Below, in pieces: positions 34,703-40,923 of a stretch of DNA of 64,000 nt (positions are counted from its first letter, which is position 1; every line of letters begins with the position of its first letter). Position numbers and translations under genes: made by a program. The DNA is from Stigmatella erecta (GTDB taxonomy: Bacteria > Myxococcota > Myxococcia > Myxococcales > Myxococcaceae): contig NZ_FOIJ01000002.1 in NCBI RefSeq assembly GCF_900111745.1, forward strand, positions 124,001 to 188,000, read 5' to 3'. The notes under the pieces are model-generated. The model had not been told where the DNA came from. It did not search any database and saw only the letters and a list, made by a program, of their open reading frames with translations.

Positions 34703-37069
34703 TCAGGCGAGCGCTTCCTCGGGGGCGGACGGCTTCCAGTAGATGTCGAAGAGCCCGCCCAGGAAGAAGCGCCCGAAGCGGCCCACCGCCGAGAGCTGCT
34801 CCTGCGTGTTGGAGGCGTTCGTCACCCGGAAGGTGGAGCACTGCCGGGCGAAGTCGTCGAGGGAGATGCGCAGCACCCCCTTGTGGCACAGGGGCCCCTC
34901 GGCCCCCCCGCGCCGCACGGTGACGAAGAGGGTGGTGGTGTCCTCCCACATGTCCAGGCCCGGGTCGTCCACCAGCTGCTTGAACCCCTCGAAGTAGAAG
35001 CGCGCGCCGGACTCGCACAGCAGCTGCATCCGGTAGCGGAGCTGCTTGACCGTGGGCTGCTGAGGGTCCGGCACCAGCACCTGGAGCTGGCCCTGGGTCA
35101 CCGTCAGCGGCCGGGGAGAGAGCCCCGGCGCCAGCACACACCCCGTTACCCGCGTGGCGTGCTCCGGGTCCTCCAGCAGGGCGCTCACGTCCGGCACGAG
35201 CACGGTGATGATGAAGCGGAAGGTGGAGGCTCCGGCCCGGTCCGGCGCCGCGGCCGGGCGGTAGTCCTCCTCCACCGCGCCGGAGATGGTGCCTTGCAAG
35301 CTCTCGGTGAAGCGCAGCCCCACGGGCAGCGCGCGCGGGGGCGGCAGCGGATCCGGGCGCGAGGAATAGTTGATGTGCCAGCCCTGCCGCTGCGCCAGCA
35401 GGGCGCAGAAGCGCTCGGCCACCGCGGAGATGGTGAGAAAAGGGTTGGTGCCCAGCGGGCGGGGAATGACGGCACCGTCACAGACGTAGAGCCCGTCGTG
35501 GACCTCCGTGCCAGACTCCCCCGCGAAGACGCGGCCCTCGTGGTCCACCACGCCGCCCTGCGCGTCCTCCGCCATGGCGCACCCTCCGAGCGGGTGCGTG
35601 ATGAGGATGGAGTTGTCCAGCCACCGGGCGCCCACCGGGTTGCGCACATAGGTGCCCCCGAACACCTCGGTGGCCTTGCGCATCTTCTGGTCCGCCCGGA
35701 GGAAGTTCTCCTGCCGACCCACGCCCGGCCAGACGGCACGCAGGCTGTCTCCATCCAGCCGCAGCTCGCCGCTGCCCGAGTCATGGGACATGACGAAGAG
35801 CGTCTGGGTGTGGTGGAGCGCCCCGTGGTAGGGCCCGCGCACCAGCCCCTCCATCACCCGGACGTTCTCCTTCACCCCGTCCACGAAGCCCTCGTCGGTG
35901 TCCTCGCCCATGAGGGGCGCCACCGCCGCGAAGAGGGCGGGCAGGTAGCCACCCAGCGCCGCAGGGACGGCGCCCTCCTCCAGCACCATGCCGCGCTCCA
36001 CCGAGTCCGGATCCTTCACCTCGATGACGCCGGTGATGGAAGGCCCCACCGGGCCCCGGCCCTCCACGGACTCCTCGCCGTAGCCCACGCCGTTCACGGG
36101 CACGTCCAGGTTGTAGCCAAAGCCCATCAGGTCGCCGTTGCCGGAGAAGTGCCGGCCCAGCTCCCGCGACAGGGACAGCCCCGCGGCGCGCGAGCGCAGG
36201 AGAATCTCCGTGCTGCCCAGGGTGCCCGCCGAGAGGATGACGCGGCCGGCGGTGAGGAACTGGAGCGGCGCGTCGAACACCTCGCGCCCCATGCCCACCA
36301 GCCGGTAGTACACGCGCCAGTGGCCCTCGTGGCGCGCCACGTGGTGCACCGCCACGTGGGTGAACAGCTCCGCGCCATGCCGCTGGGCGTCCGGTAGGTA
36401 GTTCATCTGCGTGGTGTTCTTGGCGCCCACGTTACAGCCGGTGGCGCAGTCGCCGCAGAGCGTGCAGCCCCCCTGGCGAATCCCGGCCGCGTTGAGCCCC
36501 GCCTCGAAGTGGATGCTCAGCGGCGGGCGGAAGAAGCGTCCCCCCACGGCCTCGGCGGACTGCTCCAGGATCTCCATCTTGCGAGGCGTGGGGTGGGAGG
36601 CGGGGTACGGCTGAACCCCGAGCATCCGCTCCACGTGGGAGAACCCATCGGCGAGCCGGCCCGTGACATCCGCGCGGAACGCCTCCGGCCAGCTCTCCTC
36701 CTGGAGGACGCGCGGGTCGGGCCGTAGCGCCACGCTGGCATTGATGAGCGAGGTGCCGCCCAGGCCGCACCCGGTGAGCACGGCCACGTCCCCCAGCAGG
36801 TGCAGGGAGAGCAGCCCCGTGGGCGAGCCGAGCCGGAGCTTGCCCAGCACCTCCCCGCCCGGTCCGGACATCTGCACGTCCTTCAAGAGCTGGCCACTGG
36901 TGCGGGGAAACTCTCCCGGCATGCGCTCCTTGCCCCGCTCCAGGACGCAGACCTTCTGCCCCGCCCGGGCCAGCCGGGACGCGGTGATGGCACCGCCGTA
37001 GCCCGAGCCCACAATCACCACGGGCCAGTGTTCGCCCAGTCTCTCAACCGAAGAGGACAGCTGACGCAT
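34703..37069 (-). CDS. GMC / cholesterol-oxidase-like flavoenzyme with extra C-terminal domain
   Basis: A 788-residue FAD-dependent oxidoreductase. VVIVGSGYGGAITASRLA is the dinucleotide-binding motif; GGTSLINAS and HPLGGCAMAEDA, plus ISAVAERFCALL near residue 560, match the cholesterol oxidase branch of the GMC family, which oxidises alcohols. A CTLCGDCATGC motif near residues 200-211 has the spacing of an iron-sulfur or zinc site. Residues after about 580 form an additional domain of unknown role. No signal peptide is seen, so it is likely cytoplasmic. The ATG at 37069 follows GGAGG at 8 nt and was preferred over a GTG five codons earlier. Confidence 0.87.
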   Translation of the reverse strand: MRQLSSSVERLGEHWPVVIVGSGYGGAITASRLARAGQKVCVLERGKERMPGEFPRTSGQLLKDVQMSGPGGEVLGKLRLGSPTGLLSLHLLGDVAVLTGCGLGGTSLINASVALRPDPRVLQEESWPEAFRADVTGRLADGFSHVERMLGVQPYPASHPTPRKMEILEQSAEAVGGRFFRPPLSIHFEAGLNAAGIRQGGCTLCGDCATGCNVGAKNTTQMNYLPDAQRHGAELFTHVAVHHVARHEGHWRVYYRLVGMGREVFDAPLQFLTAGRVILSAGTLGSTEILLRSRAAGLSLSRELGRHFSGNGDLMGFGYNLDVPVNGVGYGEESVEGRGPVGPSITGVIEVKDPDSVERGMVLEEGAVPAALGGYLPALFAAVAPLMGEDTDEGFVDGVKENVRVMEGLVRGPYHGALHHTQTLFVMSHDSGSGELRLDGDSLRAVWPGVGRQENFLRADQKMRKATEVFGGTYVRNPVGARWLDNSILITHPLGGCAMAEDAQGGVVDHEGRVFAGESGTEVHDGLYVCDGAVIPRPLGTNPFLTISAVAERFCALLAQRQGWHINYSSRPDPLPPPRALPVGLRFTESLQGTISGAVEEDYRPAAAPDRAGASTFRFIITVLVPDVSALLEDPEHATRVTGCVLAPGLSPRPLTVTQGQLQVLVPDPQQPTVKQLRYRMQLLCESGARFYFEGFKQLVDDPGLDMWEDTTTLFVTVRRGGAEGPLCHKGVLRISLDDFARQCSTFRVTNASNTQEQLSAVGRFGRFFLGGLFDIYWKPSAPEEALA

Positions 37070-37207
37070 CTTCCAAGCCTCCACTCATCGGCCCCCATCC
37101 TGCTCCGAGTCCGGTCTGGGTGGAATTCGTTCACCCAAGAACTATTAGCCGTTCCTCTAGAAGGCGTGGAGGGAAGCAAGCGGCCGCCTGGCCGCGGCTC
37201 GGAGTTC

Positions 37208-38458
37208 TTACGAGAAGCGGGCCCAGGCGAGCGTCTCCTCCAGGCAGCGCGTCCGGTCGCCGCCCGGCTTCTCTTGGGGGAGCGCCAGGAAGTCCGGCGC
37301 CAGGTCCACGTTGCGCGAGAGGAGCTGGAAGCACTCCACCGCCGCGCCGTCCAGCGCCTCCTGGGAGGACTGGGCCGAGAGGTCCGGATGGGCCACCAGG
37401 GTCAGCCGCAGCAGCGCCAGCCGCACGGTCAGGCGGTGCACGTACGCGAGCAAGCCGAACGCCTCGGTGTGTGGATAGCGCAGCAGGTAGTTCGCCAGAT
37501 AGTGGTGGAAGTACTGCGCGAGCCGGGCGCCATGGCGCGCCTCCAGCCCCGCCCGCCGCGCGGCATAGAGGCGCCACACGCCGGGGCCCTCCTGTTCTCC
37601 GTCCCCCGTCACCCCCAGCGCGGTCCGTGCGCCGTGCACGAACCGGGCGAAGCGCTCGCTGCGCGTCACCCCGCTCAGGTCCTTCAATTGGGAGAGCAGC
37701 CGCAGGGCGCGAGTGCCGCCCTCCTCCCACGCGGCCAGCGGCTCCTGGGGCTCTTGCGCCAGGACCTCCGCCCCCAGCGCGGCCCTCAGCAGGGCGCCCG
37801 CTTCCGCCTCGTCGTCCGGAAGCGGTGCCGGGCCCCGGAAGCGCGCATCCAGCTGGAATGCCCAGTGGGCCAGGCACTGGAGCCGCGAGGCCAGCGGGCC
37901 TCCCGGTGCGAGCAGGCGCTCCCGGAGCGCGTCCCGGACCGCGCCGGCGTGGAGCACGTAGAGGTCACCCGGCAGGCCTGGAGCGGGCCGCGCCGCCTCG
38001 GGCCGGGCCACCAGGCCAGGGGGCACGGGCACGGGCTCCACCGCATCCTCGGCCAGGAGCAACAGGCGAACCACCTCGGGGCAGGCCAGGGAGCCGGAGA
38101 CCTCCAGGTGCCCTTCGTGCTTCCAGAGGGTGCGCGGAAAGGTGGAGCAGATGTCCGGCAGCACCGCCTCGCCGTGAGCCCGATGGAGCGAGCACTGCCG
38201 CCCGGCATCGAAGAAGACGCAGTGCCCATCCGGCCGCATCCGCAGGAGGGTCCGCTCCGAGGGCCCGCCTTCCGGAAAGGCGATGCTGAACCCCCCGGCG
38301 GGCTCCGCCGTGCCCGCGGCGCGCAGCGTCTCGCGGATCCGCTCCACGCTCGCCTCGCTCACCCCCACCCGGAGCCCCCCGCAGCACGTGTCCTCGCAGC
38401 GCTCCGCGATGCAGCGAAAGCGCGTCATGAAGCGCAGCGTGGTGGCGGGGAGCGTCAA
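37208..38458 (-). CDS. FliB-family lysine N-methylase
   Basis: A 416-residue member of the FliB family, which N-methylates lysines of flagellin in enterobacteria. The family's N-terminal Cys motif is present (Cys16, Cys21, Cys25 and Cys26 in FRCIAERCEDTCC), with further Cys in QCSLHRAHG and LPDICSTFPR; these are thought to bind an iron-sulfur centre. Myxobacteria glide and have no flagellin, so another lysine-rich target is expected. It begins 13 nt after the stop of a Lys-rich histone-H1-like gene on the same strand, a striking candidate. The start is a TTG at 38458 with a weak AGGG site; an ATG ten codons in is the alternative. Confidence 0.8.
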   Translation of the reverse strand: MTLPATTLRFMTRFRCIAERCEDTCCGGLRVGVSEASVERIRETLRAAGTAEPAGGFSIAFPEGGPSERTLLRMRPDGHCVFFDAGRQCSLHRAHGEAVLPDICSTFPRTLWKHEGHLEVSGSLACPEVVRLLLLAEDAVEPVPVPPGLVARPEAARPAPGLPGDLYVLHAGAVRDALRERLLAPGGPLASRLQCLAHWAFQLDARFRGPAPLPDDEAEAGALLRAALGAEVLAQEPQEPLAAWEEGGTRALRLLSQLKDLSGVTRSERFARFVHGARTALGVTGDGEQEGPGVWRLYAARRAGLEARHGARLAQYFHHYLANYLLRYPHTEAFGLLAYVHRLTVRLALLRLTLVAHPDLSAQSSQEALDGAAVECFQLLSRNVDLAPDFLALPQEKPGGDRTRCLEETLAWARFS

Positions 38459-38471
38459 GACGTGGCCCTGC

Positions 38472-39188
38472 TCAGCGGCTGGTCCACCAGTTCTTGAACT
38501 GCTTCCAGGAGATCTTCCCGCTGCGATCGATGTCGATGATGTCGAAGGCGATCTGCAGGTCCTCCTCGGTGATGTTCTGACCGAGCGCCTCCAGCAGCCG
38601 CGCGAACTCGGGGGCCTCGATGAAGCCGGTCCGGTTGCGGTCGTACTTCTGGAAGATGTCGAGCAGCTCGTTGCCGGTGCTGGTCAGGTCATCCACGGCC
38701 GCGTGCTCGGGGGCCAGGGGCTGGATGCCGGCCGACGTGGTCTCGACGACCTGCTCCTCCTCCTCTCCTGTTTCCTCCTCACCCTCCTGAGCCTCGGGCT
38801 CGTAGCTCTCGGGAATCGCCGCCGCCTTCTTGCGGGGCGCGGGCTTGCGGGCCTTCGGGGCCGCTGGCTTCGGCGCGGCCCGGGCCGGAGACTTCGCCGC
38901 CGCGGCCTTGCTCACGGGCTTCGCCGCAGGCTTCTTCGTTGCGGCCTTGCTCGCGGGCTTCTTCGCCGCGGCCTTGCTCGCGGGCTTCGCCGCGGGCTTC
39001 TTCGTTGCGGCCTTGCTCGCAGGCTTCTTCGCCGCGGCCTTGCTCGCGGGCTTCGCCGCAGGCTTCTTCGCCGCGGCCTTGCTCGCAGGCTTCTTCGCTG
39101 CGGCCTTGCTCGCGGGCTTCTTCGCGGTGGACTGACGCTTCGCCGGTTGCTTCGCGGTGGCCTTCTTGCCTGGCTTCTTTTTCGCCAT
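38472..39188 (-). CDS. Histone-H1-like Lys/Ala/Pro-rich protein with C-terminal EF hands
   Basis: A 238-residue fusion. Residues 1-125 are a basic Lys/Ala/Pro tail like histone H1 C-termini and bacterial Hc2/AlgP proteins, with a 22-residue repeat from residue 41. An acidic Glu-rich stretch follows (about 129-147). Residues 175-238 hold two EF hands: loop 1 at 183-194 (DRNRTGFIEAPE, canonical) and loop 2 at 219-230 (DIDRSGKISWKQ, Gln at the last position, weaker). A DNA- or polyanion-binding protein gated by Ca2+ is inferred. The ATG has a strong GGGAGG site. A FliB-type lysine methylase follows 13 nt downstream and may modify its roughly 40 lysines. Confidence 0.88.
   Translation of the reverse strand: MAKKKPGKKATAKQPAKRQSTAKKPASKAAAKKPASKAAAKKPAAKPASKAAAKKPASKAATKKPAAKPASKAAAKKPASKAATKKPAAKPVSKAAAAKSPARAAPKPAAPKARKPAPRKKAAAIPESYEPEAQEGEEETGEEEEQVVETTSAGIQPLAPEHAAVDDLTSTGNELLDIFQKYDRNRTGFIEAPEFARLLEALGQNITEEDLQIAFDIIDIDRSGKISWKQFKNWWTSR
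38892..39113. repeat. Tandem 66-bp coding repeat in the H1-like tail
   Basis: The DNA encodes a 22-residue unit starting KKPAAKPASK, repeated from residue 41 with the second copy identical at the protein level and a third diverging after about 10 residues; each unit is built of two similar halves. Half-units continue upstream to about 39113. Such repeats expand and contract by slippage, so tail length may vary between strains. Confidence 0.8.
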
Positions 39189-39281
39189 GGTGCGTCCTCC
39201 CTGAGGTGGGGCGCATCGTAGCTTCACGGCACTTCCGGCGTCAGGGGCTCGCGCGATCTTTTCCTTGGAGTGCCAAGCGTC

Positions 39282-39653
39282 TCAGGCGGGCTCGATGAAG
39301 TTCAGCCGGTACCCATCGGGATCCGTGATGACGATCTCCCGCGTGTGCCACGGCTGGAGGGTGGGCCCCTCGAAGCTCACGCCGCCCTGGGCGGCCAGGG
39401 CCGCCACCGCGTCCACCCCACCCTCTCCGGTGCGGAACCCCAGCAACACCCCTACCCCGCGCCGGTCCTCCATCCCCACGCCGGAGGGCATGGAGACCAG
39501 GTACACATCCGCCGTGCCCCGCCACTTCAGGTGCAGGAAGGGCGGCTCCGACTGGACGCGCTCGAAGCCAAGCCCCTCGTAGAACCGCGCCGAGCGCTCG
39601 CCGTCCGACACGAGCACCTTCATGAAAGATGACACCGCGCCCTCGTTCTCCAT
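39282..39653 (-). CDS. VOC / glyoxalase-like domain protein
   Basis: A 123-residue single-domain member of the vicinal oxygen chelate superfamily. It shows the family pattern of paired beta-alpha-beta units: SFMKVLVSDGERSARFYEGLGF at the front and REIVITDPDGYRLNFIEP at the end, where the metal-binding Glu usually sits. Members include glyoxalases, dioxygenases and antibiotic-binding proteins; function cannot be fixed. The ATG at 39653 or the Met ten codons later (39623) could start it. It lies 28 nt behind the DmpA-like gene on the same strand. Confidence 0.83.
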   Translation of the reverse strand: MENEGAVSSFMKVLVSDGERSARFYEGLGFERVQSEPPFLHLKWRGTADVYLVSMPSGVGMEDRRGVGVLLGFRTGEGGVDAVAALAAQGGVSFEGPTLQPWHTREIVITDPDGYRLNFIEPA

Positions 39654-39681: not shown

Positions 39682-40923
39682 CTACTTGCGGCCGTATTTC
39701 TTCATCGCCTCCATGAGCCGGTCCTGCGGCAAGGCGAAGACCCGGACGCCATCGGCGCCCGTCTGGGTGTCCGCGGCGAGCAGCGCGTTGAGGATGGCCT
39801 CCTGGGTGGCCTGCACGGTGGCCTCGAACAGGGGGGTGAGCCGCTCGTTCTCCAGCATGCCCACGGTGGAGACCGGGCCCTGCGCGGGCGGGCGCGTGCC
39901 CTGGGTCGAGAAGGCCAGGAAGATGTCGCCCGAGGGGTCCGCGCCAAAGCCACCCATCTTCCCGATGCCCAGGGGCACGCGCCGGGCCACCCGCCCGAGC
40001 TGATGGGGAAGCAGGGGCGCGTCCGTGGCGACGAGGACGATGATGGACCCCAGGTCCTCGTGAAAAGCCTCCTGCCGGGAGGCCCCCTTCTCCGGGCACG
40101 CGGCCATGCCGGAGATGAAGGAGTTGGAGGGAGCCTGGCCGCCCGTGTGGCACGCCTGAAGGTCCGGAATCTCCTCTCCCACCGGCACCCCCGCCACCGA
40201 GAACGGCTTGCGGAGGCCATAGTTGCACTGGACCAGCACGCCCACCGTGTAGCCCCCTTGCGCCTCGGGCAGCTTGCGCGAGGCGGTGCCAATCCCGCCC
40301 TTGAAGCCGTGGCAGATCATCCCCGTGCCGCCCCCCACCGAGCCCTCGGCGACCGGGCCGCCGCGGGCGCCATCGAGCGCGTGGAAGACATGCTCCGGCT
40401 TGACGTGAAAGCCCTCGATGTCATTGAGGATGCCGTCGTAGGTCTCCGCCACCACCGGCAGGCTGAAGTCGAAGGCCTTGCCCCGCTTCGAGGCCCACGC
40501 AATCACCGCCTGGTGCACCGTGCCCACGCTGAAGGTGTTGGTGAGGGTCACCGGCCCGGAGAGCAGCCCCGACTCATTCACCCAGTGGCTGCCCGTCATC
40601 TCGCCGTTGCCATTGAGCGCGTAGATGGCGGCGAAGGTGGGCTCGTCCGAGGCCTTGCCGCGTGGCCACACGGCGGTGACGCCGGTGCGCACCGGGCCCT
40701 TGCCCTTCACGAGCCGGCCTTGCCCCGAGATGAGCGTGGTGTGGCCCACCTCGACGCCCGCCACGTCCGTGATGGCATCCAGCGGCCCCGGCTGCCCCCC
40801 GAAGGGAATCCCCAGCTCCCGGGCCCGGAGCCGGGTGGAGGCGGGCTGAGTTGCTCCTGTCCCCGGCAGAACCCAGGACACGAGCAGGACAGCGAAGAGC
40901 GAGGCGCGAAGCGAACATGGCAT
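39682..40923 (-). CDS. DmpA-family self-cleaving aminopeptidase (peptidase S58)
   Basis: A 413-residue exported relative of DmpA (L-aminopeptidase/D-esterase) and BapA beta-peptidyl aminopeptidase. These are N-terminal nucleophile hydrolases that cut themselves before the active Ser. The expected site is the Gly-Ser bond in AEGSVGGGTGM near residue 215; ITDVAGVEVGH at the front and GGFGADPSGDIFLAFST near the end are family blocks. A signal peptide (cut near GTGATQ) places it outside the cytoplasm. It may release N-terminal amino acids, including D- or beta-amino acids. It lies 12 nt behind a DHFR-like gene. Confidence 0.9.
   Translation of the reverse strand: MPCSLRASLFAVLLVSWVLPGTGATQPASTRLRARELGIPFGGQPGPLDAITDVAGVEVGHTTLISGQGRLVKGKGPVRTGVTAVWPRGKASDEPTFAAIYALNGNGEMTGSHWVNESGLLSGPVTLTNTFSVGTVHQAVIAWASKRGKAFDFSLPVVAETYDGILNDIEGFHVKPEHVFHALDGARGGPVAEGSVGGGTGMICHGFKGGIGTASRKLPEAQGGYTVGVLVQCNYGLRKPFSVAGVPVGEEIPDLQACHTGGQAPSNSFISGMAACPEKGASRQEAFHEDLGSIIVLVATDAPLLPHQLGRVARRVPLGIGKMGGFGADPSGDIFLAFSTQGTRPPAQGPVSTVGMLENERLTPLFEATVQATQEAILNALLAADTQTGADGVRVFALPQDRLMEAMKKYGRK

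Follow-up and report, generated by a model that had tools for sequence, protein, structure and literature searches.

A basic-tailed EF-hand protein gene beside a FliB-family gene in Stigmatella erecta and its relatives

To our knowledge, the FliB enzyme family is known only for flagellin. In Salmonella FliB, the CX4CX3CC motif holds a [4Fe-4S] cluster and eight cysteines are conserved, and the enzyme reportedly works in the cytosol, modifying lysines on the surface of its substrate (excerpts of PMC8598068). The available part of PMC7181671 names FliB orthologues in flagellated enterobacteria and Aeromonas only. The FliB-family product described here, FliB1, resembled the Salmonella enzyme in its near full-length match to NF038110, its CX4CX3CC motif, and its eight conserved cysteines. 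Unlike Salmonella FliB, FliB1 is a second, diverged copy, and flagellin was not detected in its genome. Papers on FliB or on the EF-hand protein in myxobacteria were absent among the matches listed from the open literature, as judged from titles and abstract openings.

Like AlgP and PhaF of Pseudomonas, the EF-hand protein encoded next to FliB1 has a disordered tail of K/A/P repeats whose length varies. In AlgP and PhaF, the KPAA tails are believed to tie granules or other cargo to the nucleoid, and removal of the AlgP tail upsets the positioning of polyphosphate granules (both from the accessible text of PMC9239181). In AlgP the helical domain is N-terminal and the tail C-terminal, whereas the tail of the EF-hand protein is N-terminal and joined to EF hands. 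Neither the AlgP helical domain nor a phasin domain was found in the EF-hand protein, which matched EF-hand families alone (Pfam, E 0.1). By analogy of their tails, AlgP or PhaF would be its nearest analogue.

Among bacterial enzymes proposed to methylate an H1-like protein of bacteria, the nearest case found is that of Hc1/Hc2 and NUE in Chlamydia. Chlamydial Hc2 varies by lysine-rich repeats (PMC2848022, excerpt). NUE of C. trachomatis failed to methylate Hc1, whereas the C. pneumoniae homologue had earlier been reported to do so; going by this part of PMC2904774, there is some precedent, though a disputed one, for methylation of an H1-like protein in bacteria. NUE carries a SET domain, whereas FliB1 is of the Fe-S FliB type; no SET domain was found in FliB1, PF03692 being its sole Pfam match at E 0.1.

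The EF-hand pair is of the calmodulin type. Its PDB matches were mostly calmodulins and centrins, starting from E ~2e-23; a calmodulin–calcineurin fusion reached 1e-29, and the top PDB rows, EFCAB6, summed many weak stretches. Unlike calmodulin, the EF-hand protein has one pair only, and position 12 of its loop 2 is Gln.

Locus architecture and the EF-hand protein

The window is the whole stretch of 64,000 nucleotides that was analysed, and all positions refer to it. Read along the minus strand, the gene order was S58 peptidase, glyoxalase-family, EF-hand, FliB1, and GMC oxidoreductase, with the following features.

34703..37084 (−): GMC oxidoreductase gene (Pfam, NCBIfam, synteny), directly next to the EF gene in sister genomes that lack FliB1
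37085..37207 (−): spacer between FliB1 and the GMC gene, 118–123 nt in four genomes with the upstream GMC start; a start 15 nt further in fits relatives better
37208..38458 (−): FliB1, FliB-family lysine N-methylase paralogue (NF038110), 416 aa, start TTG 38458 or ATG 38428
38381..38413 (−): CX4CX3CC motif of FliB1 (C16, C21, C25, C26), from the alignment, motif as given in the excerpt of PMC8598068
38459..38471 (−): 13-nt gap from the EF-gene stop to the FliB1 TTG, if TTG 38458 is the start
38472..39188 (−): EF-hand protein with basic tail, 238 aa, start ATG 39188 (Pfam and family homologues)
38475..38747 (−): conserved VETTSAG linker and EF-hand pair, residues 148–238 (alignment, dN/dS)
38499..38534 (−): EF loop 2, residues 219–230, Gln at position 12 (loop comparison)
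38607..38642 (−): EF loop 1, residues 183–194, canonical, Glu at position 12 (loop comparison)
38748..38816 (−): acidic linker, about residues 125–147 (alignment)
38817..39188 (−): K/A/P-rich tail, about residues 1–124 (alignment, dN/dS)
39282..39653 (−): glyoxalase-family gene, upstream, syntenic in part of the genus (Pfam, synteny)
39682..40923 (−): S58 peptidase gene, upstream (Pfam, synteny)

The initial annotation had placed an H1-like/EF-hand gene beside a FliB-family gene, and both were recovered at those coordinates on the minus strand. Its gap of 13 nt is correct if the conserved TTG 38458 is the start; the in-frame ATG 38428 is the alternative, and both codons were conserved across the four genomes with this gene arrangement (hereafter the linked genomes). 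Its description of an H1-like tail with two EF hands held for the architecture. The likeness to H1 is one of composition, as no linker-histone family matched in Pfam at E 0.1 and the model contained no winged-helix domain. Scans of 36900–39400 detected no promoter of the sigma-70 type and a single terminator-like site, which lies on the plus strand; this is no more than in shuffled sequences. In the spacer at 37085–37207, a block around CTAATAG and GGTGAACGAATTCC was alike in four genomes and is possibly a promoter of the GMC gene.

The EF-hand gene starts at ATG 39188, preceded by a GGGAGG-type ribosome site, and its product begins MAKKKP. Lysine accounts for 41 of the 238 residues; the first 166 residues, which include the K/A/P-rich repeat tail, hold 37 Lys and 4 Arg. 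The protein matched EF-hand_7 with E 8.4e-13 and the paired EF-hand family PF13499 with 48.9 bits against a cut-off of 30 bits. In the AlphaFold2 model, built from a ten-sequence alignment, the EF pair alone was folded. It showed helix-loop-helix twice with block pLDDT of ~69–88, helices occurred only in residues 166–237, and 150 of the 238 residues had pLDDT <50.

The EF region was 98.9–100% identical across three related genomes. Over the six pairs of linked genomes its dN/dS was 0–0.14; the five pairs with dS >0.2 gave 0–0.04, and the closest pair, with dS of 0.03, gave 0.14. The tail showed dN/dS of 0.29–0.45 between the same genomes and had gained and lost repeats. This variation in repeat length and sequence indicates that composition is kept rather than sequence. 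A basic tail was present in 46 of 46 distinct EF homologues read from 75 loci, FliB-linked or not.

Elsewhere in the same genome, a 106-aa SWIB/MDM2 protein (PF02201, 8.4e-17) with a MAAKKAAAKKTAAKK tail is encoded at L177:1489-1809 (+), corresponding to G000:C8 near 350045. One strict basic-tail pattern gave 7 sites at two loci. SWIB is a chromatin-type domain. These observations bear on a reading that we consider quite unlikely, in which the lysine tail is a low-information solubility or spacer region and the neighbourhood is functionally meaningless. The gain and loss of repeats fits such a spacer, as does a similar tail on a SWIB-domain protein. The retention of the basic tail in all 46 distinct homologues argues against it, however, and the SWIB parallel speaks rather for nucleic-acid binding. 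In the explanation that we favour, the disordered tail would most likely bind a polyanion (DNA, RNA or polyphosphate), by analogy with the described tails.

The calmodulin-like EF pair would be the folded part of the protein, sensing Ca2+ or binding a partner. Position 12 of loop 1 was canonical in 43 of 45 distinct homologues, with Gly in two, while position 12 of loop 2 was E in 30, Q in 11, A in 3, and K in 1. The window clade has Gln at this loop 2 position, and some Myxococcus-type proteins have Ala or Lys. Thus an acidic position 12 in both loops was not found in the window protein, in which loop 1 has E and loop 2 has Q, and loop 1 would be its sole canonical site. Replacement of Glu by Gln at position 12 of an EF loop lowers Ca2+ binding. 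Judged from the loop residues, one weak or medium Ca2+ site is likeliest for this protein, and a cooperative Ca2+ switch is less likely. The proposal of Ca2+ as a possible switch therefore kept its two EF hands and lost strength as a switch, because of Gln at loop 2 position 12.

FliB1 and its relation to the resident FliB

The assignment of FliB1 to the FliB family was borne out by NF038110, which scored 129 bits against a cut-off of 85 (E 3.1e-37; residues 9–386 of 416), and by the CX4CX3CC motif. PF03692 (CxxCxxCC) marginally missed its gathering cut-off, with 22.7 against 23 bits. The eight cysteines C16, C21, C25, C26, C80, C89, C104, and C126 were invariant in 51 FliB sequences. FliB1 is predicted to methylate lysines by the Fe-S/SAM route. 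Its AlphaFold2 model had a pLDDT of 85. Foldseek gave no match of this model to the PDB at E 0.001 or better, VIA-align gave no Z of 5 or more among 999 chains, and the sequence had no PDB match at E 1; the structure comparisons used the whole protein and speak neither for nor against a new fold.

A second FliB, 46% identical to FliB1, is encoded elsewhere in the window's genome. In a tree of 48 FliBs, FliB1 of the four linked genomes joined the resident FliBs of the genus and of G020 with support of 92/89, which falls short of the tree program's 95/80 mark. A smaller tree of 22 FliBs gave 81/87 for the paralogue origin; both trees were built from chosen sequences, and several copies from genera g23 and g43 were left out. 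The FliB1 stem in the 48-FliB tree measured 1.01 substitutions/site, against ~0.5 for the path of the resident copy over the same interval. These results give moderate support to FliB1 as a fast-diverged paralogue of the resident FliB. A second FliB of G006 (L024 / L078, G006:C10:110507-111721) had a branch of 1.11 and grouped with neither FliB1 nor FliB2.

Sixty alignment columns were at least 97% one residue over 46 other FliBs. FliB1 departed at 7 of them in all four species, at positions 197, 246, 261, 341, 356, 383, and 385, and six of the seven lie after residue 245. FliB1 would thus keep its Fe-S/SAM core and have changed mostly in the C-terminal helical half, which may be the part that recognises the client. 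We infer a duplicate with its chemistry kept and its client changed. With dN/dS of 0.17–0.25 in six pairs of the four linked genomes, FliB1 has been under purifying selection after its divergence, which makes a new substrate plausible. Since both genes were under purifying selection across the four genomes, the EF-hand gene and FliB1 are real genes. With the core kept and the C-terminal half changed, FliB1 would probably methylate a non-flagellin protein, perhaps not the target of its paralogue.

Gene order and distribution in the family

EF and FliB genes were adjacent in 4 of the 39 family genomes that have both (G000, which is the window's genome, G003, G004, and G005), all of the window's genus. 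Nine further genomes (G028, G093, G094, G096, G101, G102, G104, G105, and G110) carry both genes on one contig, ~4.6 to 5.9 Mb apart, and in the other 26 they are on different contigs. A conserved operon pair was thus rejected. The pairing proposed in the initial annotation survives as a gene order kept in four species, not as a stable functional pair, and across the family the two genes lie apart in most relatives, an outcome that the annotation itself had named as counting against its proposal. Within the clade, the 13-nt spacing was kept in all four genomes with FliB1. Two of the four linked species have an extra ORF between the EF and glyoxalase genes, and EF and FliB1 still adjoin. FliB1 staying beside the EF gene in all four species is some sign of a pair kept together.

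The EF gene was followed by the GMC gene in 8/8 genomes, seven of genus g1 and one of genus g15. In G001, G002, G006, and G020 the GMC gene came directly after the EF gene (15–25 nt) with no FliB between, while in the four window-clade genomes FliB1 lay between the two. FliB1 would have been inserted between the EF and GMC genes in the ancestor of the four species. Another way to explain the order is an older FliB1 that was lost in the sister genomes. The same gene order allows a role for FliB1 in modifying the GMC oxidoreductase or some other product of the neighbouring genes, with the EF gene a bystander, since FliB1 sits between the EF and GMC genes and these two occur together in all eight genomes. 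The sister genomes have the GMC gene without FliB1, however, and in the linked genomes FliB1 lies at least 118 nt from the GMC gene, and we regard this alternative as very unlikely.

No FliB1 match was found in the flanks (≤8 kb, shorter at contig ends) of 28 named EF loci. These loci came from Hyalangium, Myxococcus including M. xanthus AM003, Pyxidicoccus, Citreicoccus, MAGs, and one record labelled Comamonas, and several of them are the same contigs as those of the family genomes. The last record (L096, titled Comamonas sp. KCTC 72670) has a Myxococcus-type EF locus and is probably mislabelled. In 12 Myxococcus/Pyxidicoccus-type loci (L085-L090, L092-L096, and L056; 11 named loci and G028), the EF gene was followed on the same strand by a gene for a hybrid histidine kinase. 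The kinase gene followed directly in nine of them, and an opposite-strand ORF lay between in L088, L089, and L092. The two kinases of the 12 that were scanned against Pfam were PAS-HisKA-receiver-Hpt proteins with two receiver domains and one Hpt domain. In Citreicoccus (L055 and L091, one contig) the hybrid kinase after the EF gene was absent. The partner of the EF gene thus differs by genus, and FliB is one of several.

By profile search, the EF protein occurred in 53 of the 96 family genomes at E 1e-30 or better. The tally at E 0.001 was 56 genomes, the extra three (G034, G060, and G086) having weak matches only. The FliB family was found in 67 of the 96, with a weak partial match in G027. 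Both were present in 39 genomes, EF only in 14, FliB only in 28, and neither in 15, so that co-occurrence was not above chance (Fisher p 0.38, kinship not corrected). The searched genomes of Myxococcus, a laboratory genus, had both genes at separate places; G111, which agrees in coordinates with M. xanthus AM003, has one FliB-family match. In most genomes, the EF protein would work without a FliB neighbour.

As the initial annotation had held for flagellin, PF00669 gave 0 matches in the window's genome, and none were found in the 7/7 genomes of its genus; 4 of 14 control genomes were positive, as were 18 of the 96 family genomes. No PF00669 match was obtained in 63 of the 67 FliB-positive genomes, and 14 of the 18 flagellin-bearing genomes had no FliB match. 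In genera g1, g8, g12, g15, g17, g23, and g43, in which flagellin was undetected, FliB scored above the NF038110 cut-off in 63/63 searched genomes. The name of NF038110, "flagellin lysine-N-methylase", cannot be the function of the enzymes in these flagellin-free genera. As no flagellin was found in the window's genome, the substrate of FliB1 must differ.

The EF protein is not a general answer to the substrate question, since 26 of the 63 flagellin-free FliB genomes (all of g8, g12, and g43) had no clear EF protein. Over 17 other FliB regions the neighbours were pullulanase, PilZ-Hsp70, subtilase, and others, with no constant partner. Among 105 FliB loci, many of which are the same gene fetched twice and most of which have flanks of 1.5 kb, a K/A/P-rich product by our threshold lay beside FliB only in the four linked genomes. 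In G006, a lysine-rich-repeat protein is encoded ~7 kb from the resident FliB (L065:1432-2208).

Candidate targets of FliB1

We consider it probable that the two families evolved separately and came together in one clade, the EF-hand protein being a conserved adaptor of Myxococcaceae with a presumed cytosolic place, and FliB1 a diverged FliB paralogue whose target is most likely encoded elsewhere. The tail of the EF-hand protein is the best single local candidate for that target, which we put forward tentatively and at well below even chances. Were it the target, in this clade only, FliB1 would methylate the tail lysines and so tune the hold on DNA or another polyanion, and Ca2+ at loop 1 would be a second input.

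Several observations are consistent with this tentative reading. The 13-nt spacing was found in every genome with FliB1, FliB1 changed fast and then came under constraint, and the linked genomes alone have a K/A/P-rich product beside FliB. The reported action of FliB in the cytosol on surface lysines also fits (PMC8598068, in the part available). Lys/(Lys+Arg) in the tail was 0.76–0.90 in the four linked genomes against 0.64–0.74 in four sisters, and these ranges touch because the G006 tail reaches 0.78 with an alternative start. The somewhat higher proportion of Lys over Arg goes the way one would expect for a substrate of a lysine methylase. As a sign of methylation, however, it comes from one clade, and unlinked homologues ranged from 0.45 to 0.96.

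Other results argue against methylation of the tail. The adjacency is limited to four species, and the gene order in four related species counts as one event, not four. The EF gene is kept in 14 genomes that lack FliB, and the tail was present in all six of them that were read. Tail sequence and repeat number vary freely, at the dN/dS given above, and FliB has different neighbours elsewhere. A possibility is thus an enzyme–substrate pair as a local candidate of one clade, not as a conserved system. A fuller version appears unlikely. It holds that, after duplication, a FliB copy was inserted into the operon and took on methylation of the H1-like EF tail. The clade would then have a chromatin-type protein served by its own Fe-S methylase and retaining a single functional Ca2+ site, and orphan FliB-family enzymes would modify proteins other than flagellin in flagellin-free relatives.

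If true, tail methylation would provide a clear example of a FliB-family enzyme methylating lysines of an H1-like protein in bacteria. Even if it is false, the substrate of the FliB family in flagellin-free bacteria becomes a testable question, and the role of a calmodulin-like EF pair on an H1-like tail becomes testable in Myxococcus.
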